From: Hyphomonas jannaschiana VP2
Lineage (GTDB): Bacteria > Pseudomonadota > Alphaproteobacteria > Caulobacterales > Hyphomonadaceae
DNA length: 64,000 bases
Assembly (NCBI RefSeq): GCF_000685215.1
Contig: NZ_ARYJ01000009.1
Location: 1 to 64,000 of the forward strand
Direction: 5' to 3'
In this document: positions 16,210 to 34,524 of the stretch, one piece after another
Numbering within the stretch: position 1 is the stretch's first letter
Layout: each line of letters starts with the position of its first letter
Program-made: the position numbers and the translations under genes
Notes under the pieces: generated by a model
What the model was told of the DNA's origin: nothing
Seen by the model: only the letters and a program-made list of their open reading frames with translations
Database searches by the model: none

Positions 16210-16674
16210 CTAGATCAGCAAAGCCCGCAATTGCGCCGCCCAGACCAGTGCGATGCCAACCGCCAGGAAAGGACCAAACGGCATCAGTCCGGAGGGTTTG
16301 CGGCTGGTCAGCATGAGGGCGCCGGCAATCAACAGGCCAGAACTGCTGGCGATCAGCACAATCCAGGGGAGACCGATCCAGCCACACCATGCGCCACCGG
16401 CGGCGAGCAATTTTGCATCTCCCCGGCCCAGCCCGTCACTTCCGCGTAAAGCACGGTAGCTCTTTTCTACGACGACGAAAAAGAGATAACCCGCGAGGGC
16501 GCCCACAATGGCTGCCCATACACTACCGGTAAAATACCAGTATTGAACCATGCCCGCACCAATCAAAGGAAGAGTCAGGACGTCCGGCAATCGCATGGTT
16601 CGCAAATCGATCCATGATAGCGCGGCCAATGCGGGCAGAAGAACAATAGCCCAGAGCAGCACGTCGGTGTTCAT
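16210..16674 (-). CDS. gspO: Prepilin peptidase, short form (GspO-like, A24 domain only)
   Basis: An aspartic protease of the inner membrane that removes the leader of type IV pilin-like proteins. Both catalytic Asp motifs are present: SWIDLRTMRLPD near the N terminus and GRGDAKLLAAGG (the GxGD motif) in the middle. Several membrane helices surround them. At about 154 residues it lacks the N-terminal methylase domain with CxxC pairs found in full-length GspO/PilD, as in CpaA-type enzymes. I start at the ATG at 16674, with GGGAGG about 12 bases upstream; the frame is open further up. It lies just beyond the type II secretion operon and probably processes GspG-K. Confidence 0.83.
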   Translation of the reverse strand: MNTDVLLWAIVLLPALAALSWIDLRTMRLPDVLTLPLIGAGMVQYWYFTGSVWAAIVGALAGYLFFVVVEKSYRALRGSDGLGRGDAKLLAAGGAWCGWIGLPWIVLIASSSGLLIAGALMLTSRKPSGLMPFGPFLAVGIALVWAAQLRALLI

Positions 16675-16730
16675 GATGGTGCGTTCCCTCCCGGCCCCGC
16701 CGACACGGCCCCAGCATAGATGGAACATAC

Positions 16731-16764
16731 CAAAACGAAAACGCCCGGGCACATGGCCCGGGCG
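16731..16764 (-). terminator. Intrinsic terminator after the CAP-domain gene
   Basis: On the minus strand CGCCCGGGC CATGT GCCCGGGCG forms a 9-pair stem followed by TTTTCGTTTT. It lies directly downstream of the CAP-domain gene and before gspO, so gspO probably has its own promoter. Confidence 0.8.
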
Positions 16765-16788
16765 AATTGGAATGTCCTTCAGTCAGCC

Positions 16789-17616
16789 TCAGAGAGACGA
16801 CGAAATCGCCGGACCTTTCAGAGTATAAACGTCTTTTCCAAGCGCTACATCCATTTGAAGGAAACCCTCTTCCATTGAGGGAATGGATGCGGGAAGCTTG
16901 TCCCCGACACCGCGCATCAGAGTTGTGCCATTTGCCGATACGACCGACCAGCCAAGGGGTTCGAGCTTGTCATTGTAATTGGCCGCCAGATTCGTACGCG
17001 GGGCAGCAACCATTGGCATTGGCGCATCCAGTCGCCCGTCGATCCGCGCAAACAATTCCACGACATACATCATGCCATCCGCCTCAATGGCTGCGACGCC
17101 CATATGGTCGAATTCGCTGCGCTTGAAGTTTTCGGCATTCGCCTTGTCAGCCATCATGGCCTTCTGGATGTCCTCAGCGGACGTGCCGGCTTTCACCACG
17201 ACCACATTCGCACCAAAGGCCCCGATCAGACGGCTTCGCTCCATCATCCGTACACGGTCCAGGTGCGTACGGCCTTCGAGGTCCTCATGCGCTGCGTAGC
17301 CACGCACCGCCATGTCATATGCATGAAGACGGGCGGCATCGATCAGGGAGCTGAGCGACTGCAGCTCGGACACCCCCTGGTCAGCACGCTGCTCGCCCGC
17401 AAGCTGCAACAGCTGGTTCGCCATGTAGGTGTCCGTCTTGATGCCGTTGATGCCTTCAAGACAGGCATTGGCTTCTTTCTGGAACGCCGTCGGCGTCATC
17501 CCATAACCGTCAGTCAGGTCACAGGCAGGGTCTGCAAAGGAGGGGCCGCTCAGAGCCGCAAGGGCCAGCGCCGAAACGGACAGAAATTTGTATACGTTGT
17601 GTAACATAACTGTCAC
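16789..17616 (-). CDS. Secreted CAP-domain (SCP/PR1-like) protein
   Basis: A 275-residue exported protein with a signal peptide (cleavage near SFA-DP, about residue 29). The CAP fold is recognisable from ARLHAYDMAVRGYAAHEDL (first His helix), the dipeptide-rich GANVVVVKAGTSAEDI, and FDHMGVAAIEADGMMYVVELFA in the core strands. CAP proteins are usually extracellular; their bacterial roles are mostly unknown. It sits between gspO and the type II secretion operon and is terminated separately, so it could be a substrate of that system, which is only inference. The 17616 start is GTG; the ATG at 17607 is an alternative, and neither has a strong ribosome-binding site. Confidence 0.75.
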   Translation of the reverse strand: MTVMLHNVYKFLSVSALALAALSGPSFADPACDLTDGYGMTPTAFQKEANACLEGINGIKTDTYMANQLLQLAGEQRADQGVSELQSLSSLIDAARLHAYDMAVRGYAAHEDLEGRTHLDRVRMMERSRLIGAFGANVVVVKAGTSAEDIQKAMMADKANAENFKRSEFDHMGVAAIEADGMMYVVELFARIDGRLDAPMPMVAAPRTNLAANYNDKLEPLGWSVVSANGTTLMRGVGDKLPASIPSMEEGFLQMDVALGKDVYTLKGPAISSSL

Positions 17617-17703
17617 AATACGCTGTATGACGATTATGTGTCAATTACGTACAGTATTGAGTACTTTTTATGTATCGCAGCAGTTACTACAGAATGCGGT
17701 ACG

Positions 17704-18180
17704 TCATTCTGGCTGGCAAGCGGTCAGTCCTGTAAGCGGCGTTATGATTTCCCACCCCTGATCATCCTGTGAAATCATGCGGGCGAGTGGCACTCTGCGC
17801 CCTCCATCGATCTCCTCACCCGGCGAAAGGGTCAAAGAGACAGGTCGCGAATCTGCGCTGCGAAGAGTCATTCGCGTGAGGAACTGCCCGAAAATGTCGC
17901 CGCTCTGCGACTCAACCCCCATCGTCTGTTCCAGCCCCTCAAACACCACTTCCGCGGTATCGGTACCGGCGACATGGAAGAAGACAAAGTGACGAGGTTC
18001 ATCGCGCGACCAGAGGAACAGGCCGCAGGTTCCCGGTTCAAGTGTCTGGGCCGGCAGCGAATTCGTTGCCACGACATCGGCCGCCGGGCCTGCGCCATTC
18101 CTGTTCGCCGGCACTGCAGTGTCTGACGACGCACAGGCAGATACAAACACCAGACTACAAAGCAAAGCTCGAAACATCAT
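17704..18180 (-). CDS. Small lipoprotein at the end of the type II secretion operon
   Basis: A 158-residue protein that I do not recognise. A short leader ends in VSAC (a good lipobox; Cys16), then a Ser/Thr/Ala-rich linker, then a beta-rich domain (GTCGLFLWSRDEPRHFVFFH, TLSPGEEIDGGRRVP) with two Cys residues that could pair. The ATG overlaps the gspN stop (ATGA), so it is translationally coupled to the secretion operon. It may be an assembly or pilotin-like factor, but it shows no pilotin family signature that I can identify. Confidence 0.72.
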   Translation of the reverse strand: MMFRALLCSLVFVSACASSDTAVPANRNGAGPAADVVATNSLPAQTLEPGTCGLFLWSRDEPRHFVFFHVAGTDTAEVVFEGLEQTMGVESQSGDIFGQFLTRMTLRSADSRPVSLTLSPGEEIDGGRRVPLARMISQDDQGWEIITPLTGLTACQPE

Positions 18181-18917
18181 TGGCTTCTCTCCCCTTCCCC
18201 ACTTTCTTGCGAATAAACAAACCGTCCCGCCTCGTTTGTGAAGCCAGCCAACAGCAGAGCACTTGCCTGGTCCTCAGGCACATCCCACAGCTCCAGCCTG
18301 CCGCCACCATCCAGATAGGCATTCGCCGAAATCTGCGTGCCATCGACGCCCCGCCCCTCCATGGAGAAAGCAAGCTGCCCCCGATCACAGGACAGCGTGC
18401 CGGTCAGTTCTGGCCAGGTCGCTCCGTAAACGGCTGATACGCGTGACAACACATCGGATGTGACACGTCCACTTGCCTCCCGGCACCCTGTACGCCCGGC
18501 ATCGATCGAGACATTTGTCAGGCGTAATGAAACATCCTGCGCAGGAAAAGAGGCTGAAATGCGTGCCGCATCGAAAGTGAGAGCAGCCTGCCCTTTGCGA
18601 ATCCGGATGCCGTCGGATGCGAGACTGGCCAGTGCGCTCCCACGTCCGTAGGGGCCACTCCAGCGCACCATATGGCCAGGCTGCCCCTTCAGGACACGCA
18701 TCAGACTGAAGTCACCCTCAACCGCCCCCGCGACATCTCCACGAACAACGAGCCCCGTAACCTGGCCATGCCAGACCGTTCCGCGAGCTTGCTGCCAGGA
18801 TACACCCTGCTGAACAAGGCCCGACTGTCTCAAAGCGAACAAGAGCGGAATATTGGCGACAACCGCGCAAGCGAACACACCGACGAACACCGCAGAAAGC
18901 AGCAGTTTCTTTCCCAT
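18177..18917 (-). CDS. gspN: Type II secretion system protein N
   Basis: A 246-residue inner-membrane-anchored periplasmic protein. One N-terminal membrane helix (residues 5-27) is followed by a beta-rich domain with VSWQQARGTVWHGQVTGL, the characteristic GspN opening (the Gxx-A-x-GT-WxG pattern), and repeated LRLTNVSIDAG- and LSCDRGQLAF-type strands. Length and position after gspM are normal for the family. The start overlaps the gspM stop (TGATG). Its role in the complex is accessory: many systems lack it. Confidence 0.85.
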   Translation of the reverse strand: MGKKLLLSAVFVGVFACAVVANIPLLFALRQSGLVQQGVSWQQARGTVWHGQVTGLVVRGDVAGAVEGDFSLMRVLKGQPGHMVRWSGPYGRGSALASLASDGIRIRKGQAALTFDAARISASFPAQDVSLRLTNVSIDAGRTGCREASGRVTSDVLSRVSAVYGATWPELTGTLSCDRGQLAFSMEGRGVDGTQISANAYLDGGGRLELWDVPEDQASALLLAGFTNEAGRFVYSQESGEGERSQ

Positions 18918-19393
18918 CAGGAACCGCCTCCACGAAATTCGAAGCTTGCCCGGACCGTACCCGACGCATCGGCAAAAACCGATGCCTGTGTCGGCTGCGC
19001 GCCCAATTGCCGCTCTGCCATTTCCAACCAGGAAAACAGGGACTGTACAGACGCCTGATCAAATTGAATGATAATCGCGCCGCGCTCATTTGACTGAAGG
19101 CGCGAAACAGCAAGGCCGCGCTGGCTGGCAAGATCAACCAGACGCGCCCTGAGGTCTTCACCCGAAACGGATGCAACAGGTAAATCAGTGCCACGGCCAC
19201 TACCGGCAGGACGCGCCGCCACGACTGCATCCAGCGTCCGGGATGCAACGGCAAGGGACGCTTCTGCACTCTCCCTTGCGGCCAGCAGCGGACGCACAAT
19301 AAGTACATTCGCCAGCAGAGCGGTTGCCAGAAGGCCTGCACACAGAATTAGGAGACGTTCCCGTACCGACCGGGTGGACCAGTATTCCATCAT
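18917..19393 (-). CDS. gspM: Type II secretion system protein M
   Basis: A 158-residue bitopic inner-membrane protein of the assembly platform. It begins MEYW-x-x-RSVRERLLILCAG, the usual short cytoplasmic tail, followed by one membrane helix (about 15-32) and a periplasmic ferredoxin-like domain in which LVDLASQRGLAVSRLQ and FSWLEMAERQLG are recognisable. It partners GspL. The 5' end overlaps the gspL stop by 4 bases and the 3' end overlaps gspN. Confidence 0.87.
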   Translation of the reverse strand: MMEYWSTRSVRERLLILCAGLLATALLANVLIVRPLLAARESAEASLAVASRTLDAVVAARPAGSGRGTDLPVASVSGEDLRARLVDLASQRGLAVSRLQSNERGAIIIQFDQASVQSLFSWLEMAERQLGAQPTQASVFADASGTVRASFEFRGGGS

Positions 19394-20493
19394 GACGGTA
19401 GCTCCAGGATCAGATCGCCCACGACACGGCCGTCCTCGACCCGAGCATCCCCGAGACGAACGGACAGCCCTCCTGTCTCAATGGATGCCTTCAGCGCCTC
19501 ATCATCACCAAAAGCGCCATAGACCAACTTGGCCTGCAGTTGGCCGGTTTCAGCATCGTAGCGAAGGCTTGAAAGCCGAGTCCCCTCGGCCTGACCCAGC
19601 GCCGCGTACAGGACGCCTGTCATCTGCCTGAAACTGGCTGTCCGCCCTTGTGGTCCTCCAGACCGCTGCCGGACAGCTGTCAGAATGTTTGAAGGAACAG
19701 GTTCACCGGGGAAAAGGGCCGTAAAATTGTCGCGTGTCTGCTGAGTCAGCTCTGCCTCCAGACGTTTCATCGTCTGAATACTGGCAAATGTGTAGAGGCC
19801 CCAAACGACCGCCAGCGCAGCCGCAAGCCCTGCCAGCAGACGGAAGCGTTTGAAATCCACCGGCAGCTCGGCCTTTCGCGCGAATTCCGCTTGCCGCAAA
19901 TCTATTCCGGTTTCACCGGACGCTATATATCCGGCCATCAACAGCAGAACATCATCCGGGGTTTCGGTCCTGTGGCCAGCCTTGTCCAGAAGGACCGACA
20001 CAAGCTCCTCAGGGAGCGACTTGTCGATGGCGAGCCTTACACCTTCCCCGGCAAAGATGATATGGCGGCCAACATCCTGCGGAGGCGCTCCCGCTGGCAG
20101 CAACGTCACATCCGGAACGAGATGGGCATCCTCCAGTCCCGCCTCGGCAAGACGCGCCATCCACTGATCCATGAGGGCTTTGGACACAAGACAGGCACCT
20201 GCCTGCTCACCACTTTTCCTGCGCGGGTCGATGGCGACATGCAAGGTTTCAACGGGAACGGAGACATCATCCTCAACCGCGAAGCGCGCCGCACGTAACC
20301 AGTCCGCACGCCGGTTCCCCACCAACCTCACCTGCGCAAGCGCCACCTCGGTCGCCGGGACAATGATTGTGACCTCATCGGAGCCGGACGGCATGACGTC
20401 TGTCCGCTCTACGCTAACGCCTCCCTGGTCAACCGTCGCAAATCGCCAGCCCTCTCCTGGCGCTGGAAGCAAGCCTACAAAATGGCGGGCCAT
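19390..20493 (-). CDS. gspL: Type II secretion system protein L
   Basis: A 367-residue platform protein that links the cytoplasmic ATPase GspE to the periplasmic part of the machine. The N-terminal 200 residues are the actin-like cytoplasmic domain (PATEVALAQVRLVG, RADWLRAARFAVEDD). A single membrane helix lies near 218-240 (FRLLAGLAAALAVVWGLYT). The C-terminal periplasmic ferredoxin-like domain includes LSSLRYDAETGQLQAKLVYG. The start codon shares bases with the gspK stop. The order K-L-M-N is canonical. Confidence 0.88.
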   Translation of the reverse strand: MARHFVGLLPAPGEGWRFATVDQGGVSVERTDVMPSGSDEVTIIVPATEVALAQVRLVGNRRADWLRAARFAVEDDVSVPVETLHVAIDPRRKSGEQAGACLVSKALMDQWMARLAEAGLEDAHLVPDVTLLPAGAPPQDVGRHIIFAGEGVRLAIDKSLPEELVSVLLDKAGHRTETPDDVLLLMAGYIASGETGIDLRQAEFARKAELPVDFKRFRLLAGLAAALAVVWGLYTFASIQTMKRLEAELTQQTRDNFTALFPGEPVPSNILTAVRQRSGGPQGRTASFRQMTGVLYAALGQAEGTRLSSLRYDAETGQLQAKLVYGAFGDDEALKASIETGGLSVRLGDARVEDGRVVGDLILELPS

Positions 20494-21473
20494 CAGAATT
20501 CCCTCCGCACCAGAGATATGAGCGCGACATCGCCGCTTTCGGCGCGCTGGTAAAGTGCCTGATACCCGGTAAGCAGATCTCCGGTTCCAATATCCATATC
20601 CGCCGTCAGGAAGCTGGACTTCACTGATAGGGCCGCTTCATTGCGTGCATCCGGCGCAATCCTGTTCACAACATCTTCCACTAAAAAGTCATCCACTTTC
20701 AGCCACCCCCCAGTCGGACGGGATTCAATCAGTGAACGGGCATCATCCGCACTCAACTCCGCGGAAAACAGGGAAACCAGAAGCGGCGCCTGCGCAGGCG
20801 TCAGCGTATTGATGTTGAGCACTGATTGTTCCCGGCCGGGACGAAGACACACAAGTCCTTCCACCCGCGACCTGACATCCGCATTGAAGCCCGCAACCGA
20901 TTTCAATTCACTGATGCTGCGCAACTGTGTGTTCGCAGCCCGATACGGCTCCGCCTGAGACGCATAATACCCATCTTCGGCTCCGTAGGTACGCGTGGAG
21001 AAATCCGCGTCCACCCAATCCGCCAACTTCTGGCCAAGAGACTGAGCTTCCGCGTTGTTCAGCCCTGCCGCCACCAGCAATGCTTCAAACGGCGCCAGCG
21101 CGTTTTCACTCACACCGCCATCCCCGGCCTCATCAATCAGGGCATTCAGATTAAAGCAGTTGGACGCTTCCTGCGCTTGTAACACAACCACACCCCGGCC
21201 GGCGGGCAAGGTCACCGGAGTGGCAAGAAGGTCTGACTCCAGGTTCAGAACGCCTTCGGTCACTTTCATCAGGTCCGTCAGGCGCGACGCCGCCGCATTC
21301 GCCGCACCACGCGCCACCCAGAAAGTTTCAGCCCGCGAACTGGAAGACTTCGCGATGAGAACGGCACGGGCCAGCGCGTCAGTCGCGGCAATGGCCGCGG
21401 CGGACATCAGCATGACGATAACCAGCACTGAAAGCAGGCTCGCGCCCTGTTGCTTGTCAGGTCGCTTGCTCAC
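20493..21473 (-). CDS. gspK: Type II secretion minor pseudopilin K
   Basis: A 326-residue minor pseudopilin, the tip of the pseudopilus. The prepilin leader ends in QQG before ASLLSVLVIVMLMSAAA, and there is no Glu at mature position 5, which is the known peculiarity of GspK. The large alpha-helical insertion typical of GspK is present (AGLNNAEAQSLGQKLADWVD, GFNADVRSRVEGLVCLRP). Processing requires prepilin peptidase, probably the gspO product at 16210. The gene overlaps gspJ by 4 bases. Confidence 0.88.
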   Translation of the reverse strand: MSKRPDKQQGASLLSVLVIVMLMSAAAIAATDALARAVLIAKSSSSRAETFWVARGAANAAASRLTDLMKVTEGVLNLESDLLATPVTLPAGRGVVVLQAQEASNCFNLNALIDEAGDGGVSENALAPFEALLVAAGLNNAEAQSLGQKLADWVDADFSTRTYGAEDGYYASQAEPYRAANTQLRSISELKSVAGFNADVRSRVEGLVCLRPGREQSVLNINTLTPAQAPLLVSLFSAELSADDARSLIESRPTGGWLKVDDFLVEDVVNRIAPDARNEAALSVKSSFLTADMDIGTGDLLTGYQALYQRAESGDVALISLVRREF

Positions 21474-22036
21474 CCGCCTCCTCCCATGATGAAGAGTTGG
21501 GTCAGCACGTCCTTGTCTGAATATTCCAGCTGTAGCTCGATCGCCTTGGGCATGTCTTCAGACCGGCCATCCCATTCAGGCAGCCAATCCCGCCCATTGA
21601 AGTAACGCGTTGTCATACGGTCCACACCTGCGGCCAGGACACGTTCCACGTAAGGCGTCTCCGAGGAAGGGTCTGGCCGCAACCAAGCCCGGCGGACCAG
21701 AGCCCCATCCTTAAATGAGTATTCGATCGCCAGAAGACTGGAATGGGTATCGTCCGGTACCGGATGGCTCCATCCATCCCGGACCAGAGCGAGAAATGAA
21801 CCGGATGTGTAACCCGGGCGCTCCGTCTGCCCAGCCAGTGAAATGGCATTGGCAAAATCGTCCCGCATCAGCGTGTGCGCGAGATCCGCGCTACTGACGG
21901 CCTCCGTGGTCCGCCCCAGCCGGTCCGACGCCCTGACCGTTCCGATCAGGAGCGTTGAGCCTGCAACAGCAATCATCGAAGTCAGCGCAAGCGCGACAAG
22001 CATTTCGATCAGGGTGAAACCGGCATCACGGGTCAT
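21470..22036 (-). CDS. gspJ: Type II secretion minor pseudopilin J
   Basis: A 188-residue minor pseudopilin. The prepilin cleavage motif is DAG before FTLIEMLVALALTSM, with Glu5 present. The rest follows the GspJ pattern: VRASDRLGRTTEAVSSADLA, then LMRDDFANAI in the first helical region and a final beta domain with EWDGRSEDMPKAIELQLEY. It overlaps gspI and gspK by 4 bases each (ATGA pairs). Confidence 0.88.
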   Translation of the reverse strand: MTRDAGFTLIEMLVALALTSMIAVAGSTLLIGTVRASDRLGRTTEAVSSADLAHTLMRDDFANAISLAGQTERPGYTSGSFLALVRDGWSHPVPDDTHSSLLAIEYSFKDGALVRRAWLRPDPSSETPYVERVLAAGVDRMTTRYFNGRDWLPEWDGRSEDMPKAIELQLEYSDKDVLTQLFIMGGGG

Positions 22037-22395
22037 GGCGCCACCTTTACCAGCGTATCGCGCATGGCCAGTTGCTGTCCCGTCGTCGCATCGCTCACGA
22101 TAACCCGGATACCTGCCAGGCCTTCAGGCTCGCGGACTTCTATCTGGCGAACCCATTCAAAACTCTGTCCCCGCTGTTCACTCTGACCAGACATGGACCC
22201 CGCGCGCAAAACCTCCGGACTGGTCACCGCCTCGACCAGGCGATTGTCCGCTTCAATACCAGCCAGTGCGAGACTACGTGTGTGCCGCGCATTTGCGGTT
22301 GTTTCATTCACCAGATGGGCAAGGCCAATGGCCGCTGTGGAAAACACCATCAGCGCCACCAGCACCTCTGCAAGGGTGAAACCGCGGTCTCTCAT
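22033..22395 (-). CDS. gspI: Type II secretion minor pseudopilin I
   Basis: A 120-residue minor pseudopilin, normal length. The leader MRDRG is followed by FTLAEVLVALMVFSTAAIG with Glu5 present, then the helix LAHLVNETTANARHTRSLALAGIEADNRL, of which the ALAGIEADNRL part is a GspI hallmark. The short beta domain ends the protein. It starts the pseudopilus tip complex with GspJ and GspK. The 4-base overlaps on both sides show tight translational coupling. Confidence 0.87.
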   Translation of the reverse strand: MRDRGFTLAEVLVALMVFSTAAIGLAHLVNETTANARHTRSLALAGIEADNRLVEAVTSPEVLRAGSMSGQSEQRGQSFEWVRQIEVREPEGLAGIRVIVSDATTGQQLAMRDTLVKVAP

Positions 22396-22844
22396 CGGAC
22401 CGGCCGCCCGGTAAGCTCAACATCCCGGGTTTTTGCACCCTTTGCAAACCTCACATCGGGCCCTGACACAATTCCGGAAGCGTCTGCAATAATCTGTGGA
22501 CGGACTTCATCCGTCTCGCCCTGTTTTTCGGTGACGAGACTTGCGGTCACCCCCCCTGTCAGCCGCCTGACCGTTCCCTGAACTGGCAGCCAGCGTCCAT
22601 TGATGCGCGTGTAAACCAGGTATGTGTTCTCTTCGAAACGGATGCCTTGTGACTGGCCCCGGGTGATTGCCTGATCCATCGTACGGGCCAGCACCTTTTC
22701 GAACTGAGCGGTCTCCGTCTGCAAGGCATCGGGCCGCGATGGCATAACCATCACAACCATGGCGCTTGCCAGCGCCATGATGAACAAGGCGACCATGATC
22801 TCCACCAGGGAGAAGCCGCCATCCCGATATAGGCCTCTACGCAC
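22392..22844 (-). CDS. gspH: Type II secretion minor pseudopilin H
   Basis: A 150-residue pseudopilin. The leader ends in DGG before FSLVEIMVALFIMALAS (Glu5 present). The following region, FEKVLARTMDQAITRGQSQG and a RFEENTYLVYTRINGRW beta segment, is typical of GspH/FimT. It connects the tip complex to the GspG filament. It begins 8 bases after the gspG stop and overlaps gspI by 4 bases. Confidence 0.86.
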   Translation of the reverse strand: MRRGLYRDGGFSLVEIMVALFIMALASAMVVMVMPSRPDALQTETAQFEKVLARTMDQAITRGQSQGIRFEENTYLVYTRINGRWLPVQGTVRRLTGGVTASLVTEKQGETDEVRPQIIADASGIVSGPDVRFAKGAKTRDVELTGRPVR

Positions 22845-22852
22845 GAAACAGC

Positions 22853-23299: not shown

Positions 23300-23311
23300 G
23301 GCAGTGCCCTC

Positions 23312-26007: not shown

Positions 26008-27956
26008 TGGGGCGGCGGACTCCCCAGAACCTGATTGATAAAGCGGTCCAGGGATTCCCCGCTGCTACCCTGACCTTCCCAAAGCTCCTGAGCCCGCAAA
26101 TAGCGATAGGACCGCGTCGTGGCATCCCGGGCATCGGACCGGCTACGCACGATGGTCGGCCGGATGAAAACCATCAGATTGGTACGTGCAAGCCCTTTAC
26201 CCTCGGAGCGGAAAAGACGGCCCGCCACAGGAATGTCCCCGAGTACCGGCACCTTTTCGTTCGACATGCTTTCAGTCTGTTCGACCAGACCACCCAGCAC
26301 AATGATCTCTCCGTCATCGGCGATGACACTGGTCTCAATCTTGCGGGTGTTGAAAATAAGATCCGTAGACGACCCGGTCGTAATCGCCTGGGCGATGTTG
26401 GAAACTTCCTGGATGATGTCGAGGCGGATCGTGTCATCATTCGAAATACGGGGCGTGACATTCAGGCCAACACCAACATCCCGGCGTTCAACGGTGCGGA
26501 ACGGGTTCGAGTTGGAATCTCCCAGCACTTCGCCTGTTGCGACGGGAACTTCCTGCCCCACCAGGAGCGAGGAGGTGCCGTTGTCGAGTGTCATGTTGAA
26601 TGGTTTGGACAGAATACGCGACTGGGTATCGTTCTCTACGGCTGTCAGGATCGCACCGAACAAAGTGTCGCCGTCCTGCCCACCAACGCCGACACTCAGA
26701 CCGGACAGCCCAAGCAGGGAGTTGACCGCCGCCTCGGCGAACGGGTTCGTGTCGGTGTCGCCGGTGTTGAAAGGCGTATTGGAACTGAGCGCACCGGCAA
26801 GCGCCAGCATGCTGGGCGCAGACCGCGAATAGTTTGTCGACACGAACGGCACTGTGGAATCATTACTGCCAGACACAAGGAACTGGAGGCCAAGCTCCCG
26901 CGCCGTATCATCCGACATCTCCACAATGATCGCCTCAACCAACACCTGCGCACGGCGCCGATCCAGATCGGTGATGATGCGCTCCAGCGCGCCGAGCGTT
27001 TCCGGAGGGGCGCTGATGACCAGAGAGTTCGTCGGCTCGTGCTGAGCGATGGTCGTAGTCGCATCCACCTCACCGCCTGCCGCTCGCCGCGCGTCCATCG
27101 CGACAGCCATTTGCTGCAAAACAGGAACGAGATCGACAGCGTTGGCATTGTTCAGGGGAATAACTCTCAACGAGTCTTCAGTCCGGTCATGGGAGTCGAG
27201 CTCACGGCTGACTTCGACGGCACGCCGGACCAGCGCTTCATCGCCCTGCAGAACCACAGCGTTGCCGGACTCCGACGACACCGCCTGGAAGTTGATCGCC
27301 GCACCATTCTCTCCGGGCTGAACGGAAAGCGCATTGAGAATACTGGCCATTTCACGTGCCGGCACATTCTTCAGGCTGATGGTTTGCGTAACTGACGGGT
27401 CGGCATCGATCTGTTTCAGCATCGCGCGAAGCCGCGGAAGGTTCGAGGCATAGTCCACAACAACAAGCGTGTTGGACGCATTATTCGCGACAACCTGCCC
27501 CTGCTCAGCAATCAGCGGCTTGATCACGGCCGCAACATCACGCGCGGACGAGTGCTTCAATGCGAAGATTTCCGTTGTAAACGTGTTGGAGTCCGAAGCG
27601 GACACGCTTGCATCCGAGACGGCCTGGCGCTCCGGCACGATCCGATAGGTCGACCGGCCGGCAGGCACCGCCGTGAATCCGTGAACGCGTAGCGCCGACA
27701 GGAAGACGTCGAACACCTGGTCCCGCGTCAACGGCGTTGACGACGAAACGGTCACCCGCTTGGTGCGGGCATCAGGATGCACGATAAACGTGTAACCGGT
27801 CACGGTCGAAACGTCCGCAATCAGAGCGGAAAGTTCGACATCATCGAAATTCATCACATGACGCGTTGGTTCCGCATTGCTTTCCCCGGCAAGCGCAAAT
27901 GCACTTGGCGCGGAGGCAGCAAACAGAATTGCGGAGAGGGCGGATTTCAACTTCAT
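26004..27956 (-). CDS. gspD: Type II secretion secretin D
   Basis: The 650-residue outer-membrane channel. After a signal peptide (cleavage near AFALAG) come the N0 domain (VELSALIADVSTVTGYTFIV) and three N1-N3 repeats (SARDVAAVIKPLIAEQGQVV; VPAREMASILNAL; ANAVDLVPVLQQMA). The secretin core runs from about 330, with VPVLGDIPVAGRLFRS and the final strand NLMVFIRPTIVR. The C-terminal tail after the core is short (about 45 residues) and ends in SPPPQ, so the pilotin-binding S-domain, if any, is minimal. It overlaps gspE by 4 bases; gspC ends 3 bases upstream. Confidence 0.94.
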   Translation of the reverse strand: MKLKSALSAILFAASAPSAFALAGESNAEPTRHVMNFDDVELSALIADVSTVTGYTFIVHPDARTKRVTVSSSTPLTRDQVFDVFLSALRVHGFTAVPAGRSTYRIVPERQAVSDASVSASDSNTFTTEIFALKHSSARDVAAVIKPLIAEQGQVVANNASNTLVVVDYASNLPRLRAMLKQIDADPSVTQTISLKNVPAREMASILNALSVQPGENGAAINFQAVSSESGNAVVLQGDEALVRRAVEVSRELDSHDRTEDSLRVIPLNNANAVDLVPVLQQMAVAMDARRAAGGEVDATTTIAQHEPTNSLVISAPPETLGALERIITDLDRRRAQVLVEAIIVEMSDDTARELGLQFLVSGSNDSTVPFVSTNYSRSAPSMLALAGALSSNTPFNTGDTDTNPFAEAAVNSLLGLSGLSVGVGGQDGDTLFGAILTAVENDTQSRILSKPFNMTLDNGTSSLLVGQEVPVATGEVLGDSNSNPFRTVERRDVGVGLNVTPRISNDDTIRLDIIQEVSNIAQAITTGSSTDLIFNTRKIETSVIADDGEIIVLGGLVEQTESMSNEKVPVLGDIPVAGRLFRSEGKGLARTNLMVFIRPTIVRSRSDARDATTRSYRYLRAQELWEGQGSSGESLDRFINQVLGSPPPQ

Positions 27957-27959
27957 AAG

Positions 27960-28817
27960 CTACGGCTTCTCCGTCAGCGTAAATACCTGATCAATCTGTC
28001 GGCCGTCGCGATCGATCCTCAAACGAACTTTCTTTAATGAAGAAAGTTTCATGGCGAGGTCTCCCGGCCCTGTTGAGCCAACAGGAATACCATCCACTGA
28101 CAGGATGATGTCTCCTGACCGCAGCCCCGACTGTTCCAGAAGCTGCTCATCCCCCCGGCTTCCGACCTCATACCCGACAAAGTCCTGCCCCCGGTGAACC
28201 GGGTTGATCGTGAGATTGGCGAGAAAATCGCTGGCTGTCGTGCTGATGATCCGGCCTTCGTCCTCAGGCTGGCTACCCGTCTTCCGAGGCGACGGATCAC
28301 CAGGTTCAGAAAGAACTGCCAGCCTGTCTGCGCCGCTCCCCATCAACAGAGCTTCGATCTGCCCATTCTTTCGCAAGGTCACGCGATCCCCATACACACG
28401 GTCGAGCACCACCCCTTCCAGGATGGTCTCGCCCGGCGCAAAAATGCTCAACCGGTTATTCGGCATCACAATCATCGCAACACCCGTGCCATCTGCCGAT
28501 GCCCGGACGCCTTTCAGGACAAGATTTAGCTTGGTTTCCGGTGCTTCCTGAACATCTTCAACGGGTTCAGCCACACGGGAGAAAGGGTTCGTCGTGACCA
28601 GAAGCGACATGTCTCCGACAAGTTCACGTGCGGTACTGCCCGAAACGGCACTTTGACTCTGAACCATCGGCAACGTGCCAGAAACTGCGCCGCCGGGAAC
28701 AATCACCAGCCACACGGTCTTGGCCGCAAGAATGGCCAGTCCGGCCACGATGAGCAGCTCGGTAACCATAATTGCAGGCCCGGCAAAACGGACGAGCCCG
28801 CGACGGATATTCTCCAT
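27960..28817 (-). CDS. gspC: Type II secretion protein C with PDZ domain
   Basis: About 285 residues. A short cytoplasmic tail and one membrane helix (about 15-40) precede the homology-region domain that contacts the secretin (TTNPFSR, LNLVLKGVRASADG, FAPGETILEGVVLDRVYGDRV). At the C terminus a PDZ domain is clear (GLRSGDIILSVDGIPVGS). I start at the ATG at 28817, which has GGGGGG six bases upstream; the frame is open to 28859 but only a TTG starts there and an ATG at 28838 has no ribosome-binding site. It follows the TonB receptor gene by 46 bases on the same strand. Confidence 0.9.
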   Translation of the reverse strand: MENIRRGLVRFAGPAIMVTELLIVAGLAILAAKTVWLVIVPGGAVSGTLPMVQSQSAVSGSTARELVGDMSLLVTTNPFSRVAEPVEDVQEAPETKLNLVLKGVRASADGTGVAMIVMPNNRLSIFAPGETILEGVVLDRVYGDRVTLRKNGQIEALLMGSGADRLAVLSEPGDPSPRKTGSQPEDEGRIISTTASDFLANLTINPVHRGQDFVGYEVGSRGDEQLLEQSGLRSGDIILSVDGIPVGSTGPGDLAMKLSSLKKVRLRIDRDGRQIDQVFTLTEKP

Positions 28818-28863
28818 CGCGGACCCCCCATTGAACATTCTGGATTCAGATCCAGTCAAATGA

Positions 28864-31536
28864 TCAGAACCTCCGTTTCAGACCAATGCTGAACACAGTG
28901 TCCTGCTTGTAAGTGTCCACAAAAACCTTGTCAGGACCGCTTTCCTGATAGGCTTCATAGCTTTCACCGAACAGGTTCTGGACGTTCAGCGAGAATTCGT
29001 AGTCTCCGCCGCCCATATTGAAGCCCTTGTTCCACACAAAGTCTACGGTCATTGGCGGTTGTTCGAGGAATGCAGGGATCCCACGAGCGAGGATTTCGCC
29101 TGAGCGGATCCTTTCCGAAACGTAATTCACGAGCAGGTTGTATTCTGAACGTGCGCTCTCGTTCAGTAGGCCGACCTGAAGGTTGAACAGGTGTTCTGAC
29201 TGGCCCTGCAGCTGGCGTCCGTCCAGGATCAGGCCGGAGGCATCTTCAAACCCGCGAACCGGATTGAGATTGGTCCCGACGTTCACAGCAACCTCGCCCA
29301 CGGCATCAACCGAGGAATCCGACCAGGTGTAGTTGGCCTTCAGTTGCAGTTCGCGATCATCAAAGAATGACCAGCCGGTCCATTGCTGCATGGGCAGCAC
29401 CTGCTCATATTCGACCTCAAAGCCATAGAGCTCAGCAGCCGGCGCATTGATGAAGCTCGTCTGAACGGTTTCCGCCGGCACGAGGACTTCCTCGATCGGG
29501 TTCGTGATGTCCTTGTAGAACAGACCGATCGTCGCGAACTGATCACGTGCGAAATAGTATTCGGCACGCAGGTCGTAGTTCTTGATCGAAGCATTCACCA
29601 GGTACGGGTTACCGAAGAAGGTCACATCGGTTTCGGAATTGTTGAACACGGCCGGGGCCAGTTCGCGGAACTGCGGGCGGGTAATCGTTTCCGAATATCC
29701 ACCCCGGACCTGAACTGCGTCGATCGGGTTCCATGTCAGCGTGACTGCGGGGAACCAGTCCTGCTCATCGATGACGCCTTCCACAAAGTTCGTCGACAGG
29801 TCCATACCAATTGATTGCGTATCGACCGCCTGAATCGCATCCTCGAAACGAACGCCGACAGCTGCGCGGATATAAGGCGTGACCTGAGTATCCAGGCCGA
29901 CATATCCGGCATCAATCTCAAGCGTTGCCAGATAAAGCTGCGGGAAACCGTCGTTCTTGATTTCGGTGATGAAGCCGGGCCCATCCGGTTGGAACAAATA
30001 GGCATAGATATAGTCGAGACGGTTTGTCCCAAAGCGGCCATCCGGCCCGGGCGCACCCGCGACACCATTGATGTCATAGATGAAGCTCGTCGCCTTACGG
30101 TCATTTTCGACATAAGCGTAACCGGCTTTGAGTTCCGTTTCGCAGAAGAAGAAACAGTCCCCTGCCCGGTCAAGCGGCAGGGTCAGGTCGATGCCGAAGT
30201 CCGTGGTGTCATCGTCAATCCGGCTGAACTGCATACGGTTCGCGCTCGGGCTGTTGGACAGCGAGAGGCTACCATCGTCCGCAATACGATAGATGTTCGA
30301 CAGCTGATACGGGGCATCACGGAGGGCTTCGGAATAGGATCCGCGCCATTCGACTTTCAGGTCATGAAGGCCCGGGAAGAAGTGCTCACCCTGAACCTGG
30401 GTCGACCAGAGCTGTTGCTCGATCCACTCAAGATAGTCGTTACGAAGACGCGTATCTTCCTGAGTAAACCCGTCCAGCCCAGTGCTGACAATGCGCGCCT
30501 CTTTTTCAGAGGAACGGGTCACCAGCCCTGTGAACTTGATTTCGTGGTTGTCGAACAGATCCACCCCGATCGTGGCCAGTGCGTTCAGGCCGATCGTGTT
30601 CTGCGTGGAGTCGCGAGTGAATTTCTGGTTCGGCTCAAGACGGCCGGTGCCGGAGTTGATCGCACCAAAGCTACGCTCACCGCGTTTGGTTTCCCATTCG
30701 TTGGAATAGCCACCCGATGCGGTAAAGCCGATGGAAACATCATTGTTCAGATCGACACGCGTGCCGCCTGAGATGTCAAATCCACCGTTCGGGTTTACTT
30801 CCCCTTGCTGCATGACCAGCAGAGAGGAATTATCCGTCAGTTGCCGGCCAAATTCGCGGGTCAGTCCATCGGCGACAGACGGACGGTCACGGGAGCCGTC
30901 GTCAATGCCCAACCAGTCAGTCTCACCACCATCGTACATCAGGCCATCGCGCAGCGACGTCTGGACGTCGATGCCAGCGCTGACACCAACGGTCAGGAAC
31001 GGCTCATCGGGAACAGCTTTTGTCCGCAGGTCGACCGTACCGCCGCCGAACTCACCCGGCAGGTTTGGCGAATAGGTCTTCTGCACGAGAACGCTTTTCA
31101 GCGTCGAGGTCGGGAACAGGTTCAGCGGCACAACGCGGCGCAGCGGTGCCGGGCTTGGCAGCGGCGATCCGTTCAGCAAAGCTGTCGAATAGCGCTCGTT
31201 CAGACCACGAACATAAATGAATTCGTCTTCCGCTGCGGCGATACCCGCCACGCGGGCAAGTGCAGCCGCCGCATCTCCGTCGCCCTGAAGGCTGAAATCG
31301 CCCTCGTCAATGAGCGCCGAAACTTCGGACGTGTTGCGCTTTTCGTCCGGAATAAACTGGCCGCGGACAACAACCGTCTGTTGGCGTGCCTCAGTTTCGA
31401 CTTCGACCGGAGCAGGTTGTTCTTCTACAGCAGCCGCGGGATCGGCGACCGTGGCGTCCTGGGCCAGCGCGGGCGAAATCCACGCCAGACAGGCGCTCGT
31501 CAGCAGGACGGAGCGGGCGGACATGAAACGTTTCAT
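28864..31536 (-). CDS. TonB-dependent receptor co-encoded with the type II secretion operon
   Basis: An 890-residue outer-membrane receptor. The signal peptide ends near SPALAQ. The plug domain has the form seen in large receptors: FIYVRGLNERYSTALLNG, then VPLNLFPTSTLKSVLVQKTY and GEFGGGTVDLRT. The barrel ends in SIGLKRRF. AGGA is eight bases before the ATG. It lies in the same direction as and only 46 bases before gspC, so it is probably transcribed with the secretion genes. A terminator-like hairpin separates it from the lipoprotein gene upstream. Substrate unknown; the location suggests a link with secretion or with a secreted protein. Confidence 0.9.
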   Translation of the reverse strand: MKRFMSARSVLLTSACLAWISPALAQDATVADPAAAVEEQPAPVEVETEARQQTVVVRGQFIPDEKRNTSEVSALIDEGDFSLQGDGDAAAALARVAGIAAAEDEFIYVRGLNERYSTALLNGSPLPSPAPLRRVVPLNLFPTSTLKSVLVQKTYSPNLPGEFGGGTVDLRTKAVPDEPFLTVGVSAGIDVQTSLRDGLMYDGGETDWLGIDDGSRDRPSVADGLTREFGRQLTDNSSLLVMQQGEVNPNGGFDISGGTRVDLNNDVSIGFTASGGYSNEWETKRGERSFGAINSGTGRLEPNQKFTRDSTQNTIGLNALATIGVDLFDNHEIKFTGLVTRSSEKEARIVSTGLDGFTQEDTRLRNDYLEWIEQQLWSTQVQGEHFFPGLHDLKVEWRGSYSEALRDAPYQLSNIYRIADDGSLSLSNSPSANRMQFSRIDDDTTDFGIDLTLPLDRAGDCFFFCETELKAGYAYVENDRKATSFIYDINGVAGAPGPDGRFGTNRLDYIYAYLFQPDGPGFITEIKNDGFPQLYLATLEIDAGYVGLDTQVTPYIRAAVGVRFEDAIQAVDTQSIGMDLSTNFVEGVIDEQDWFPAVTLTWNPIDAVQVRGGYSETITRPQFRELAPAVFNNSETDVTFFGNPYLVNASIKNYDLRAEYYFARDQFATIGLFYKDITNPIEEVLVPAETVQTSFINAPAAELYGFEVEYEQVLPMQQWTGWSFFDDRELQLKANYTWSDSSVDAVGEVAVNVGTNLNPVRGFEDASGLILDGRQLQGQSEHLFNLQVGLLNESARSEYNLLVNYVSERIRSGEILARGIPAFLEQPPMTVDFVWNKGFNMGGGDYEFSLNVQNLFGESYEAYQESGPDKVFVDTYKQDTVFSIGLKRRF

Positions 31537-31585
31537 CTTGTTTTTCCTGAATGCGAAACTGAACCAGTCGCAAGAAAGAGTGGCT

Positions 31586-31629
31586 AAGAAAGCAAAAGAG
31601 GTGGAGCAGCCGGTACGCGCTGCTCCACC
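31586..31629 (-). terminator. Intrinsic terminator between the duplicated lipoprotein and the receptor gene
   Basis: On the minus strand GGTGGAGCAGC, an 8-base loop, then GCTGCTCCACC gives a perfect 11-pair stem followed by the T-rich run TCTTTTGCTTTCTT. It lies 18 bases after the lipoprotein stop. It would separate lipoprotein expression from the receptor-gsp operon, or let only part of transcription read through. Confidence 0.8.
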
Positions 31630-31647
31630 CGATTGCCGGCGCGATAA

Positions 31648-34524
31648 CTAGTTCGCGCTGGTGAGGTTACCTTCCTGATCGATGGACCAGCCAAGGAACC
31701 AGGTGTCGTTGGCATCTTCGACAGCACCGATATAGGTCGTCGGCTCCAATTCACCGATGCCGGTCACATCGAACACCGGAACGGCGTTCTCATTGGCACC
31801 CGGAACCACACCCGGACGGCCCGAGCGGAAGGTGAAGCCGCTGGTCGTGATCGGGTTACCGGTGACCAGGTTGTTCGCAGCCGTGAAGGTCGGGTCTTCC
31901 CCGTCATTCTCCAGGTCGTCGCCGTTTCCGGAGAGGAACCAGGACTGGATCTGAAGATCGCCATTGTCGAAATTCGTGATGGTCTGAGTGTCATCAACAT
32001 CGATGCCAGCATCCGGCCAGCCGAGAACGATGGCATTGGCAACCGTCCCCATCATGCCGCGGCGGAGCACAGCGCCCGTATCGGCATTCACATCACCACC
32101 TGCAATGATCGTGATGTTCGAGATACGCGGTGTGGAAACCGGCGTGGCTGCATTGTCATTGTTCAGGTTGTCACCCTCAAGACCGCGCGGGTCTTCAGAG
32201 ATGCCGCCCGTTGCAGACGATACACCACCGTAAGCAATGCCGTACTGCAGAGAGCCCTGCCAGCCATCGGTCCAGTCGAACTGGTCGTCGCCGCAACCGG
32301 TTGCCAGCATGTGCTTGGCGCTGACGGTGCCGCCGAACCATTCGAAGCAGTCATCCAGGTTGTTGTAGACCTGCACATACTCAACTTCGGTGTTCGAACC
32401 GACGCCCTGGAAGGCAATGCCGTTCAGTTCGTCATCATTGGTCAGGCGGACACCGGCATACTCTACGCGGGTGTAGAAGATCTGGCCGGAGTCATCGTCG
32501 GAGCTTGCACCGCCGAAGAAGCCCGAAGAGCCTTCGCCAGACTTCTCACAGTCAACCGAGCCGCCGGTTGCACCGGCGTCAGCACAGGCGTTGATCGGTG
32601 CACGGCCGTTCAGGATCACACCACCCCAGAGGCCTTTGGTGTCCTGGTCAAACGTACCGGTGCCGGCAATCTTGTCCTTGGAGGTGAAGACAACCGGGCG
32701 GGAAGCCGTACCATTCGAGAGGATTTTGGAACCGCGGGTGATGACGAGGTAGTCATCATTGCCCTCAGCGACGACTGTCACACCGGCATCGATGGTCAGG
32801 TCGGTCGCAGCAGAACCGGCCACCGGGTTTGCCGGATCGGCACCCTGGTCCACACCGATGAAGACGGCGCCAGACAGTTCGTAGATCAGCTGATCGCCAT
32901 TCGTCAGGTGCAGGTCGCTCGTGATGGCGTTCGCGCCGCTGATCACACAGAGCTTCTTGCTATCCAGCGTGCCGTTCTGGGTCGTGCCGGACGGGCAGTT
33001 TGCCTCGGTTTCCGGGAAAAGCGTGCCCGGCTGAGCGAAGGAGGCCCAGTTGCTGGTCACGGTTTCCGTAGGTGCGAATGCACCGATATAGTCGGTCGTG
33101 TCGAAGAAGCTGTCGCCTGAAAGCACGGTCGAAACCGGAACGTTAAGCTCCTGCTGACCCGGGAAGAACTCATCCGTCAGCGTGTTGTTGCCGGTACGAA
33201 TATTAGCGCTTGCCGGGAATGTCGGGACACCATCTGTGTCGTTGGTGAAGTTCGTCGGGTTGTCGAGGAACAGGCTCTCGATCACCAGGTCACCATCATT
33301 ATAGTTGGTGAAGGTCTGGGTATCGTCGACGTCCAGGCCGCTTTCGAAGCCGGTCACAATCGTGTTGACCAGACGGCCTTTGGTGCCACGGCGGAGCAGA
33401 ACGCCCTGCTGGTTACCCGTGGTGCCGACAAGCGTCACGTTGGAGATGCTCGGGTTCGAGAACGGCTCAGCGGCATTTGCATTGTTCAGGTTGTCTGCTT
33501 CGATGCCGCGCGGATCTTCCGAAGACGGATTGGTGGAGCGAACAACCGCGAATTGGAGCTTGCCGGACCAGCCGTCCGTCCAGTCGATCGAGTCATCGCC
33601 GGTGCCCGTGGCCACGAAGTATTTCACACCGACGGTCCCGCCGAACCACTCTACAGCGTCGTCAAGATTGTTGTGGACCTGAATGTGATCAACCGTCGTG
33701 CCTGCGCCAACGCCCTGGAACGCGATGCCATTCAGTTCGTCTTCCGTGGTGAGACGCGAGCCTGCATATTCCACAGACACATACTGAAGCGTGCCGGAAT
33801 TGTCGTTGGCCTGGTCACCGCCGAAGAGACCGGACGACCCCTCGCCGGACTTTTCACATTCGGCCGTGCCGCCCGTTGCCGTAGCGCTGGAGCAGGCGTT
33901 GATCGGCGCAAAACCGTTCAGCACCAGACCGCCCCACTGCGCGGTCGTGCTGGCTTCAGTGATGCTGGAACCGGTTTCTTCGTCATTCAGCTTGGCGCGG
34001 GACGTAAAGCGGATCGGGTTGGAAGCCGTACCAACAGCTTCAATGCGGGAACCGCGGGAAACGACCATATAGTCGTCGGTGGCCGTTGCCGTACCGGATG
34101 CGGAAGCCCCGAAGAAGCGCACGCCTTCACCAACGGTGAGGATGGCAGCCGTTCCGCCGTTCGCCGTATCAGACCCGATGAAGACCGGGCCACGGATCGC
34201 AATCGTCGTGTTCGCAGGAATGTTGATGTCGGTCGTCACGATGGTCGAACCGGAACCGCTGCCGAGCGCACAGACGAGCACGTCGGAAAAGCCATCAGCC
34301 GCAATCGCATCGAGGGTCGTCTCGCTGGTGCCAGTCGGACAACCAGCCGTCGGAACCAGATCGATCGTCGCAGATGCCGGCGGTGGCGGAGGCGGAGGCG
34401 GCGGAGGGCTAACCGGCGTGGTCGGCTGGCCGGGCGACGAGATGGTCGTGTCCGAGCATGCGGCCAGCGTCAGAATGGCGAGGCTCGCCATCGTTGCCAG
34501 CTTCAGTGATTTGCGGATTTTCAT
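31648..34524 (-). CDS. Large lipoprotein with two repeated halves, probable type II secretion-linked surface protein
   Basis: A 958-residue protein. The leader ends in LAAC (Cys23, lipobox), then a linker with ten consecutive Pro (40-49). Two homologous halves follow (about 61-505 and 508-950). Each contains, in the same order, KSGEGSSG-x-FGG, DDELNGIAFQGVG, NLDD-x2-EWFGGTV, DWTDGW, EDPRG-x-E-x-DNLNN and DVDDTQT-x-TN, and ends in a TT-x-YIGA segment. Short strand-turn repeats suggest a right-handed beta-helix, and the Asp-rich loops could bind calcium. GAGGG precedes the ATG. I do not know the family name. A lipoprotein such as ElpS of Caulobacter, exported by type II secretion, is a possible comparison. 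Confidence 0.82.
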   Translation of the reverse strand: MKIRKSLKLATMASLAILTLAACSDTTISSPGQPTTPVSPPPPPPPPPPASATIDLVPTAGCPTGTSETTLDAIAADGFSDVLVCALGSGSGSTIVTTDINIPANTTIAIRGPVFIGSDTANGGTAAILTVGEGVRFFGASASGTATATDDYMVVSRGSRIEAVGTASNPIRFTSRAKLNDEETGSSITEASTTAQWGGLVLNGFAPINACSSATATGGTAECEKSGEGSSGLFGGDQANDNSGTLQYVSVEYAGSRLTTEDELNGIAFQGVGAGTTVDHIQVHNNLDDAVEWFGGTVGVKYFVATGTGDDSIDWTDGWSGKLQFAVVRSTNPSSEDPRGIEADNLNNANAAEPFSNPSISNVTLVGTTGNQQGVLLRRGTKGRLVNTIVTGFESGLDVDDTQTFTNYNDGDLVIESLFLDNPTNFTNDTDGVPTFPASANIRTGNNTLTDEFFPGQQELNVPVSTVLSGDSFFDTTDYIGAFAPTETVTSNWASFAQPGTLFPETEANCPSGTTQNGTLDSKKLCVISGANAITSDLHLTNGDQLIYELSGAVFIGVDQGADPANPVAGSAATDLTIDAGVTVVAEGNDDYLVITRGSKILSNGTASRPVVFTSKDKIAGTGTFDQDTKGLWGGVILNGRAPINACADAGATGGSVDCEKSGEGSSGFFGGASSDDDSGQIFYTRVEYAGVRLTNDDELNGIAFQGVGSNTEVEYVQVYNNLDDCFEWFGGTVSAKHMLATGCGDDQFDWTDGWQGSLQYGIAYGGVSSATGGISEDPRGLEGDNLNNDNAATPVSTPRISNITIIAGGDVNADTGAVLRRGMMGTVANAIVLGWPDAGIDVDDTQTITNFDNGDLQIQSWFLSGNGDDLENDGEDPTFTAANNLVTGNPITTSGFTFRSGRPGVVPGANENAVPVFDVTGIGELEPTTYIGAVEDANDTWFLGWSIDQEGNLTSAN

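Follow-up and report, generated by a model that had tools for sequence, protein, structure and literature searches.

A conserved lipoprotein-receptor pair beside type II secretion genes in Hyphomonas jannaschiana

Does a TonB-dependent receptor (TBDR) encoded immediately before a type II secretion system (T2SS) belong to that system? The question is raised by a locus in the first 64,000 nucleotides of contig NZ_ARYJ01000009.1 of Hyphomonas jannaschiana VP2 (the window), where genes for a large lipoprotein, a TBDR and gspC to gspN follow one another in this order on the minus strand, with a prepilin peptidase gene last. The original prediction took the lipoprotein and the receptor for functional partners of the secreton. 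In our comparisons, it is the lipoprotein-receptor pair that appears to be conserved as a unit, not the secretion system. We consider it probable that the pair serves uptake under phosphate starvation, in a manner similar to SusCD and BtuBG, next to a T2SS that would provide secreted proteins and cause shedding of the lipoprotein. Three genes carry the argument:

31648..34524, minus strand: ElpS-type lipoprotein of 958 residues with two tandem, predicted beta-helix domains, recognised by its open reading frame (ORF), the lipobox LAAC23 and a poly-Pro linker
28864..31536, minus strand: TBDR of 890 residues, the putative partner of ElpS, with Pfam Plug and barrel matches over the cut-offs
27960..28817, minus strand: gspC, from an ATG start (the longest ORF begins at 28859), with a Pfam T2SSC match of 74.5 bits (cut-off 27)

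The last base of the receptor gene is 28864 and the likely ATG of gspC is at 28817, which leaves a gap of 46 bases. Profiles and coordinates thus confirmed the predicted arrangement, a complete gspC-N set with the receptor 46 bases before it and a 958-residue poly-Pro lipoprotein upstream. The receptor scored 174 bits against TIGR01782 (cut-off 310) and is not assigned to that subfamily. The prediction had regarded a TBDR ahead of a T2SS operon as unusual, yet this order has been in print since 2010. Le Blastier et al. (PMC2996285; published work is cited here from passages of each paper) described elpS (cc0170), a TBDR gene (cc0171) and gspC-N in this order in Caulobacter crescentus and named the same order for Hyphomonas neptunium, Sphingomonas alaskensis and Xanthomonas campestris. 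The arrangement itself is therefore already published; what is new here is that the pair is separable from the T2SS, and a candidate sorting or docking peptide. The locus is of a known kind, with the lipoprotein in a two-domain form.

The original prediction had proposed a genome survey of receptor-gspC adjacency and of lipoprotein co-occurrence. We surveyed 150 genomes of the window's order, with counts uncorrected for relatedness, and called the lipoprotein and receptor genes adjacent when they lay on the same strand with their matched parts within 1,500 bases. Of the 150 genomes, 115 had the lipoprotein, 113 the receptor and 109 gspC. The receptor never occurred without the lipoprotein (0/113), and the two were adjacent on one strand in 111/113, the other two genomes (G001 and G142) having a contig end between them. 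Among the best 80 named loci of one scan, the pair was adjacent in 79 and interrupted by a contig end in the other. As in a SusCD-like pair, lipoprotein and receptor are thus always together (113/113 receptor genomes; 79/80 best named loci).

The link to the T2SS is looser. The receptor was followed by gspC on the same strand in 78 of the 102 order genomes having both, which is not a chance adjacency; the other 24 included divergent, reversed and distant arrangements. A T2SS, called from gspC or gspL, was present in 110 genomes, 102 with the pair and eight without the receptor. Eleven pair genomes, seven from one genus (g6) and four from another (g15), had no match to gspC, gspL or gspN. The resulting table of pair against T2SS (102/11/8/29) is strongly associated (Fisher 5e-15, uncorrected). 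Within the best 80 named loci, at least two gsp genes were found in the flanks of 31 and none or one in 36, with 13 being too short. The pair stood next to the T2SS in Caulobacterales, Maricaulales, Kordiimonadales, some Sphingomonadales and Xanthomonadales/Lysobacterales, again among these 80 loci. Across 299 genomes of the phylum, ElpS was found in 30, gspC in 147 and both in 22. This is a loose association, with gspC in 22/30 ElpS genomes versus 125/269 others (p 0.0065, uncorrected).

Twenty more distant stretches gave the same picture of a pair that travels together. Lipoprotein and receptor lay side by side in 19, with the order reversed in L184, L186 and L188; L185 had no receptor. The two ElpS-like proteins of genome G249, encoded in L184 and L185, begin with a Sec-type start and lack a recognised lipobox; one of the two genes has no adjoining receptor. 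We searched 13 of the distant stretches (L182-L194, from 12 genomes) with queries from L193. Close homologues of phoB and phoR lay beside the pair in four (L183, L187, L192 and L193), and a DUF3450-ExbB-ExbB-ExbD-TonB set followed the receptor in four (L182, L191, L192 and L193); with these queries, seven showed neither. In L193 (1795-16684) the order is phoB, phoR, a phosphate-type binding protein (PBP), a 2-oxoglutarate (2OG) oxygenase, ElpS, TBDR, DUF3450, ExbB, ExbB, ExbD, TonB and TPR. The four phoBR loci, of which L192 and L193 hold both sets, represent a compact phosphate-regulated TonB module. Homologues of the 2OG-Fe(II) oxygenase (>130 bits to that of L193) also occur near the pair in L076, L083, L089, L092, L093, L095, L109, L118, L146, L195 and L201.

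The proposed partnership with the secreton therefore divides into parts. Mutual partnership of lipoprotein and receptor is supported by co-occurrence and adjacency, and the T2SS neighbourhood by the 78/102 and the 31 of the best 80. Membership of the secreton is not: the T2SS-less pair genomes, the T2SS genomes lacking the receptor and the distant pairs beside phoBR or a TonB set all speak against it. We rejected the receptor as a part of the T2SS on the 11 pair genomes without gspC or gspL and the eight gspC/gspL genomes without the receptor.

At the other extreme, the neighbourhood could be historical only, with pair and T2SS sharing no function and their positions kept by descent. The 24 genomes that hold both apart or in another order would fit this, as would the distant genomes having both, where gspC is found either on another contig than elpS or at a distance of over 200 kb. 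Against it, the adjacency recurs in the several orders listed above, PhoB controls the Caulobacter T2SS as part of its regulon (PMC11208175, 2024), and release of ElpS requires the T2SS there (PMC2996285). We judge a purely historical neighbourhood quite improbable.

What kind of protein, then, is the lipoprotein? Its two domains are:

33055..34377, minus strand: N-terminal ElpS domain (residues 50-490), from a profile match
31651..33054, minus strand: C-terminal ElpS domain (residues 491-958), from a profile match and a structure model

No Pfam or NCBIfam family matched the large lipoprotein at E 0.001. It has the homologous domain, the position directly before a TBDR and the lipobox followed by a low-complexity linker that mark ElpS. 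By these features it is a member of the ElpS family, an assignment that relies on the paper naming Hyphomonas and Caulobacterales homologues (PMC2996285) and not on an alignment with cc0170. The comparison with Caulobacter ElpS made in the original prediction was thus apt. Gene order, lipoprotein family and receptor position are alike in the two loci. Caulobacter ElpS, at ~50 kDa (PMC2996285), is presumably single-domain, whereas the Hyphomonas protein is doubled.

The lipoprotein had been described as duplicated, which holds in the sense of an internal duplication, the halves being 46% identical over 449 aligned columns (E 1e-106). We rejected a single ancient duplication kept intact. On a 64-row quick tree of domains, the N/C label requires 16 changes (shuffled mean 18.9), and in 12 of the 23 two-domain ElpS proteins examined (the window protein and 22 others) the N and C halves group as sisters. 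Sister halves and frequent label changes point to repeated duplication or concerted evolution. In one draft Xanthomonas arboricola stretch (L074:9734-11479) the elpS gene is broken into two reading frames; an intact copy is present in L147.

The model of the whole lipoprotein reached a predicted local distance difference test (pLDDT) score of 81.7 with 17 sequences, and that of the C-terminal domain alone a pLDDT of 88.5 and a predicted template modelling score (pTM) of 0.91 with 42 sequences. Foldseek matched both mostly to right-handed beta-helix proteins, weakly and with low template modelling (TM) scores, which is informative at the level of fold class. The best match of the whole protein was a PL6 alginate lyase (4e-4); those of the C-terminal domain were a GH87 glucanase (7e-4) and then the pectate lyase Pel9A (1e-3). 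A sequence search of solved structures returned four matches for the lipoprotein, the best with E 0.079, and none for the receptor at 0.001. The models fit the right-handed parallel beta-helix class, and enzyme and binder are not told apart by this fold. These matches agree with the polygalacturonase-like modelling of Flavobacterium homologues (PMC8115612).

This fold raises the alternative that the lipoprotein acts as an enzyme or a binder of glycans and sets phosphorus-bearing polymers free, the receptor importing the products with no physical complex between the two. The weak matches extend from pectate and alginate lyases to AlgE/AlgG epimerases and tailspikes, ElpS has invariant acidic residues, and phosphatase activity is associated with ElpS in Caulobacter (PMC2996285). 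Such weak matches are common to many non-enzymes of the fold, however, no Pfam family was matched, and so strict a pairing with a single receptor family speaks for contact. We regard this alternative as rather unlikely, though the strongest of those considered.

How would such a lipoprotein reach its receptor? The residues directly following its lipidated cysteine offer a candidate answer:

34429..34458, minus strand: codons of the conserved N-terminal peptide Cys23-Gly32 (C-SDTTI-SSPG), which follows the motif C-x(4,7)-[IV]-x-SPG

We compared the N-termini of 142 ElpS ORFs, less seven duplicates and 13 in which no lipobox was recognised; the latter were fragments at contig ends, the second part of a split gene, ORFs with odd starts, and secreted forms. 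The pattern C-x(4-7)-[IV]-x-S-P-G was present in 101 of 109 distinct alpha/Xanthomonadales-type N-termini versus 0/108 control lipobox ORFs from the same loci; one of the misses (L054) arose because the rule chose the wrong cysteine. A looser rule, C-x(3,9)-[SP]PG, matched 105/109 versus two of the 108 controls (105/122 ElpS N-termini overall). The motif precedes a variable linker with many Pro, Gly or Thr residues. Of the 13 proteins in the distant, Alteromonadales-type group, 12 start with CGG or CGGG followed by D-I. More generally, Gly, Ala, Asp and Glu abound beside the cysteine. The motif was intact in all four loci read from the 11 T2SS-less pair genomes. A survey of the open literature (titles and abstract openings, with subscription papers outside its scope and a single search aimed at such a peptide) found no paper reporting it.

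The original prediction suggested that the T2SS exports the lipoprotein to the surface. This was contradicted in Caulobacter, the only organism tested, in which ElpS remained accessible to proteinase K in a gspC-N deletion and its surface location is therefore T2SS-independent (PMC2996285). The idea stays alive for Hyphomonas because a GspN route has been described and gspN is in the locus. In that route, lipoproteins such as InvL and PulA pass through the T2SS by means of GspN and of a peptide beside the cysteine that is rich in Gly/Ser or Asn/Asp (PMC12802150, 2025). Like InvL and PulA, ElpS has a lipobox, a peptide beside the cysteine and gspN in the genome. Its motif, unlike theirs, adds [IV]-x-S-P-G and persists in T2SS-less genomes, and its surface location was T2SS-independent in Caulobacter.

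ElpS might accordingly be T2SS cargo, with GspN recognising the peptide after the cysteine, the T2SS carrying the lipoprotein to the surface and the receptor importing the ligand that it captures. The gspN gene of the operon, the composition of the ElpS start and the association of pair and T2SS in the order would be explained in this way. Surface exposure in the Caulobacter deletion and the intact motif in T2SS-less genomes point the other way, and gspN does not track the pair significantly among T2SS genomes (90/102 with it vs 5/8 without; p 0.076). We hold transport of ElpS as T2SS cargo to be unlikely.

The prediction also allowed that the receptor takes part in releasing the lipoprotein. 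In this alternative the TBDR would help to release or flip the lipoprotein across the outer membrane instead of importing a ligand. In its favour, the two genes hardly ever part, the way in which ElpS reaches the surface without the T2SS was left unexplained in Caulobacter (PMC2996285), and the peptide beside the lipid could dock on the receptor. Deletion of cc0171, however, does not suppress production of ElpS-3Flag (PMC2996285), a result that concerns production and not surface location, and the ExbB-ExbD-TonB genes beside the pair in four distant loci fit import. We hold a release or flipping function to be very improbable.

We tentatively propose instead that C-G-[AG]-[DT]-[DE]-[IV]-[AS]-S-P-G, or C-G-G-(G)-D-I in the distant group, is a proteobacterial surface-sorting or receptor-docking signal that may place ElpS on the TBDR without the T2SS. 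ElpS-TBDR would then be a SusCD-like phosphorus importer outside Bacteroidota, to which a T2SS was added in some lineages to feed and shed the pair. Taken as a whole, we consider this proposal possible but doubtful. The acidic residues near the cysteine resemble the K-(D/E)2 export signal of Bacteroidota (PMC5080379), and the Gly/Asp-rich start resembles the T2SS lipoprotein sorting motif (PMC12802150); both are likenesses only.

Is the pair connected to phosphate? In Caulobacter, low phosphate induces elpS, and cc0171 is constitutive (data not shown in PMC2996285). In the window, we scored sites with a matrix refined on 121 regions, from which the window and its seven nearest relatives were excluded:

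34661..34684, minus strand: Pho-box-like site upstream of elpS, 17.9 bits, rank 2 of 127,954 window positions

The refined matrix retains sites above 6 bits in 114 of the 121 training regions. A plain pattern, TGTCA-N6-TGTCA with at most two mismatches, was counted upstream of 129 of the 142 ElpS ORFs. It was found in 101/129, versus 7/125 coding controls and 14/129 mononucleotide shuffles, and it recurs in 86/113 alpha-type, 3/3 Xanthomonadales and 12/13 distant regions. The 7-mers most enriched upstream of elpS, found without any pattern, were CTGTCAC, TGTCACA and ACTGTCA. In the organism's own genome, a similar consensus occurs 21 times (at most two mismatches) vs once for the reversed control. 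Of ten hand-picked proteins beside these candidate genomic sites, four were TonB receptors and one each an OprP/OprO-type porin, a PHO4 transporter and a PstC-like permease; three were unrelated or unknown. Between elpS and gspC there was no strong Pho match, the best (10.1 bits) lying inside the receptor gene. From the predicted site we infer that elpS is under PhoB control in Hyphomonas.

A second element may separate the expression of elpS from that of the genes behind it:

31599..31630, minus strand: terminator-like hairpin with 12 pairs, a T-rich tail and a fold z of -3.40

The 110 bases after elpS had a fold z below -2 in 101 of 133 loci, relative to mononucleotide shuffles. A perfect stem of at least eight pairs was present in 54/133, with a T-rich tail in 26. 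Transcription of elpS may mostly stop at this hairpin, which would yield much lipoprotein and less receptor and T2SS.

The remaining genes of the secretion cluster are:

26004..27956, minus strand: gspD, NCBIfam 516 bits (cut-off 351)
24520..26007, minus strand: gspE, NCBIfam 616 bits, slightly under the cut-off of 630
23312..24520, minus strand: gspF, NCBIfam 410 bits, slightly under the cut-off of 424
22853..23299, minus strand: gspG, over the NCBIfam cut-off
22392..22844, minus strand: gspH, NCBIfam 57 bits, under the cut-off of 80
22033..22395, minus strand: gspI, over the NCBIfam cut-off
21470..22036, minus strand: gspJ, over the NCBIfam cut-off
20493..21473, minus strand: gspK, over the NCBIfam cut-off
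19390..20493, minus strand: gspL, NCBIfam 166 bits (cut-off 65)
18917..19393, minus strand: gspM, Pfam T2SSM over the cut-off, no NCBIfam match
18177..18917, minus strand: gspN, Pfam T2SSN over the cut-off, no NCBIfam match
17704..18180, minus strand: small lipoprotein of 158 residues after gspN, no Pfam or NCBIfam match and no named family
16789..17616, minus strand: CAP-domain protein (Pfam CAP) with an apparent signal peptide
16210..16752, minus strand: prepilin peptidase (GspO), Pfam Peptidase_A24

Secretin, ATPase, platform protein, pseudopilins G-K, C, L, M and prepilin peptidase are found in a single cluster. E, F and H fall under the NCBI cut-offs, as does GspC with its NCBIfam model (57 bits, cut-off 102); the remaining Gsp proteins pass a curated cut-off in at least one library. 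The locus is a T2SS gene set, for which protein secretion itself is a prediction. Two genes that the original prediction does not mention, those of the 158-residue lipoprotein and the CAP-domain protein, lie between gspN and the peptidase gene.

The small lipoprotein gene begins at the end of gspN and has a homologue at the same place in 18 of 20 relatives' stretches. Its family conserves cysteines in C-G-x-F-L-W and in a C-terminal A-C. The protein is a candidate pilotin-like or accessory lipoprotein of the T2SS.

The CAP gene has strong predicted Pho boxes of its own:

17597..17620, plus strand: Pho-box match at the CAP gene start, rank 1 in the window, 25.5 bits, one mismatch to the consensus
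17623..17646, minus strand: second Pho-box match upstream of the CAP gene, rank 3, 17.4 bits

The gene was found in five of the 20 relatives' stretches (L202, L203, L204, L212 and L220), all from the same genus, which is represented by six stretches (L213 lacks the gene). All five copies have strong Pho matches at their start. The CAP protein is a possible phosphate-starvation cargo of the adjoining T2SS. A CAP gene with Pho boxes did not turn up in the titles and abstract openings of the open literature, in which no search was aimed at this gene. The conserved Pho box, the N-terminal peptide and the CAP gene are not among the features described in the cited passages of PMC2996285.

How might these parts work together? 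In the uptake reading that we favour, PhoB would turn on elpS, as the predicted Pho box suggests and in keeping with the published low-phosphate induction in Caulobacter, and the hairpin would allow higher expression of elpS than of the receptor and gsp genes. The doubled beta-helix lipoprotein would be lipidated, reach the surface and sit on or near its cognate TBDR. There it may capture a phosphorus-containing ligand and pass it to the TBDR for TonB-driven import, by analogy with SusD and BtuG. The T2SS operon would be a recurrent and dispensable neighbour that secretes proteins for the same stress, with the CAP protein as a local candidate. A T2SS-secreted protease may cut the lipoprotein in its linker and shed it, as suggested by the Caulobacter data, in which release of ElpS requires the T2SS and is blocked by protease inhibitors (PMC2996285).

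Several points weigh against this reading. The ligand, its transport and the ElpS-receptor complex are all hypothetical, both here and in the literature passages cited. In Caulobacter, deletion of cc0171 left ElpS-3Flag production in place, cc0171 unlike elpS was constitutive, and intracellular phosphate showed no detectable change (PMC2996285). The Foldseek matches are weak (best E 4e-4 and 7e-4, with low TM scores), and the likeness of the beta-helix to phage tailspikes and polysaccharide-active enzymes would also suit an enzyme or a glycan-binding protein in place of a lid. The genome counts ignore relatedness, and the 11 T2SS-less pair genomes come from only two genera. The Pho matrix was seeded with a Pho-type pattern before its refinement; the plain consensus fits the window's upstream region with five of 12 mismatches at best and also fails in some near relatives. 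Three of the seven excluded nearest relatives score below 10 bits, the other four above 16.

Published lipoprotein-receptor systems help to place the pair. Among them are the PUSIII/PUSIV clusters of Flavobacterium, in which lipoproteins with 31-36% identity to Caulobacter ElpS are encoded beside a TonB-dependent transporter (TBDT), in one cluster with phoBR, and which are strongly induced by low phosphate (PMC8115612). They belong to Bacteroidota, no T2SS is mentioned in the passages cited, and we liken them to the present pair by the paper's description and not by sequence. SusCD and PusCD of Bacteroidota likewise have a TBDT encoded next to a surface lipoprotein. ElpS, by contrast, is not matched by SusD in either Pfam or NCBIfam and is modelled as a beta-helix, so that a SusD-type fold is not indicated. 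In BtuB-BtuG, a vitamin B12 TBDT is closed by a surface lipoprotein lid in a pedal-bin mechanism (PMC10404256). BtuG differs from ElpS in lipoprotein type and in its B12 ligand, and a comparable ElpS-receptor lid complex is hypothetical.

Little is settled about how surface lipoproteins of Proteobacteria get across the outer membrane. The ElpS peptide, conserved beside the lipid in many genera whether or not a T2SS is present, offers a concrete and easily tested candidate signal. The pairing suggests that TonB import with the help of a lipoprotein, most familiar from Bacteroidota, may serve phosphorus acquisition in Alpha- and Gammaproteobacteria.

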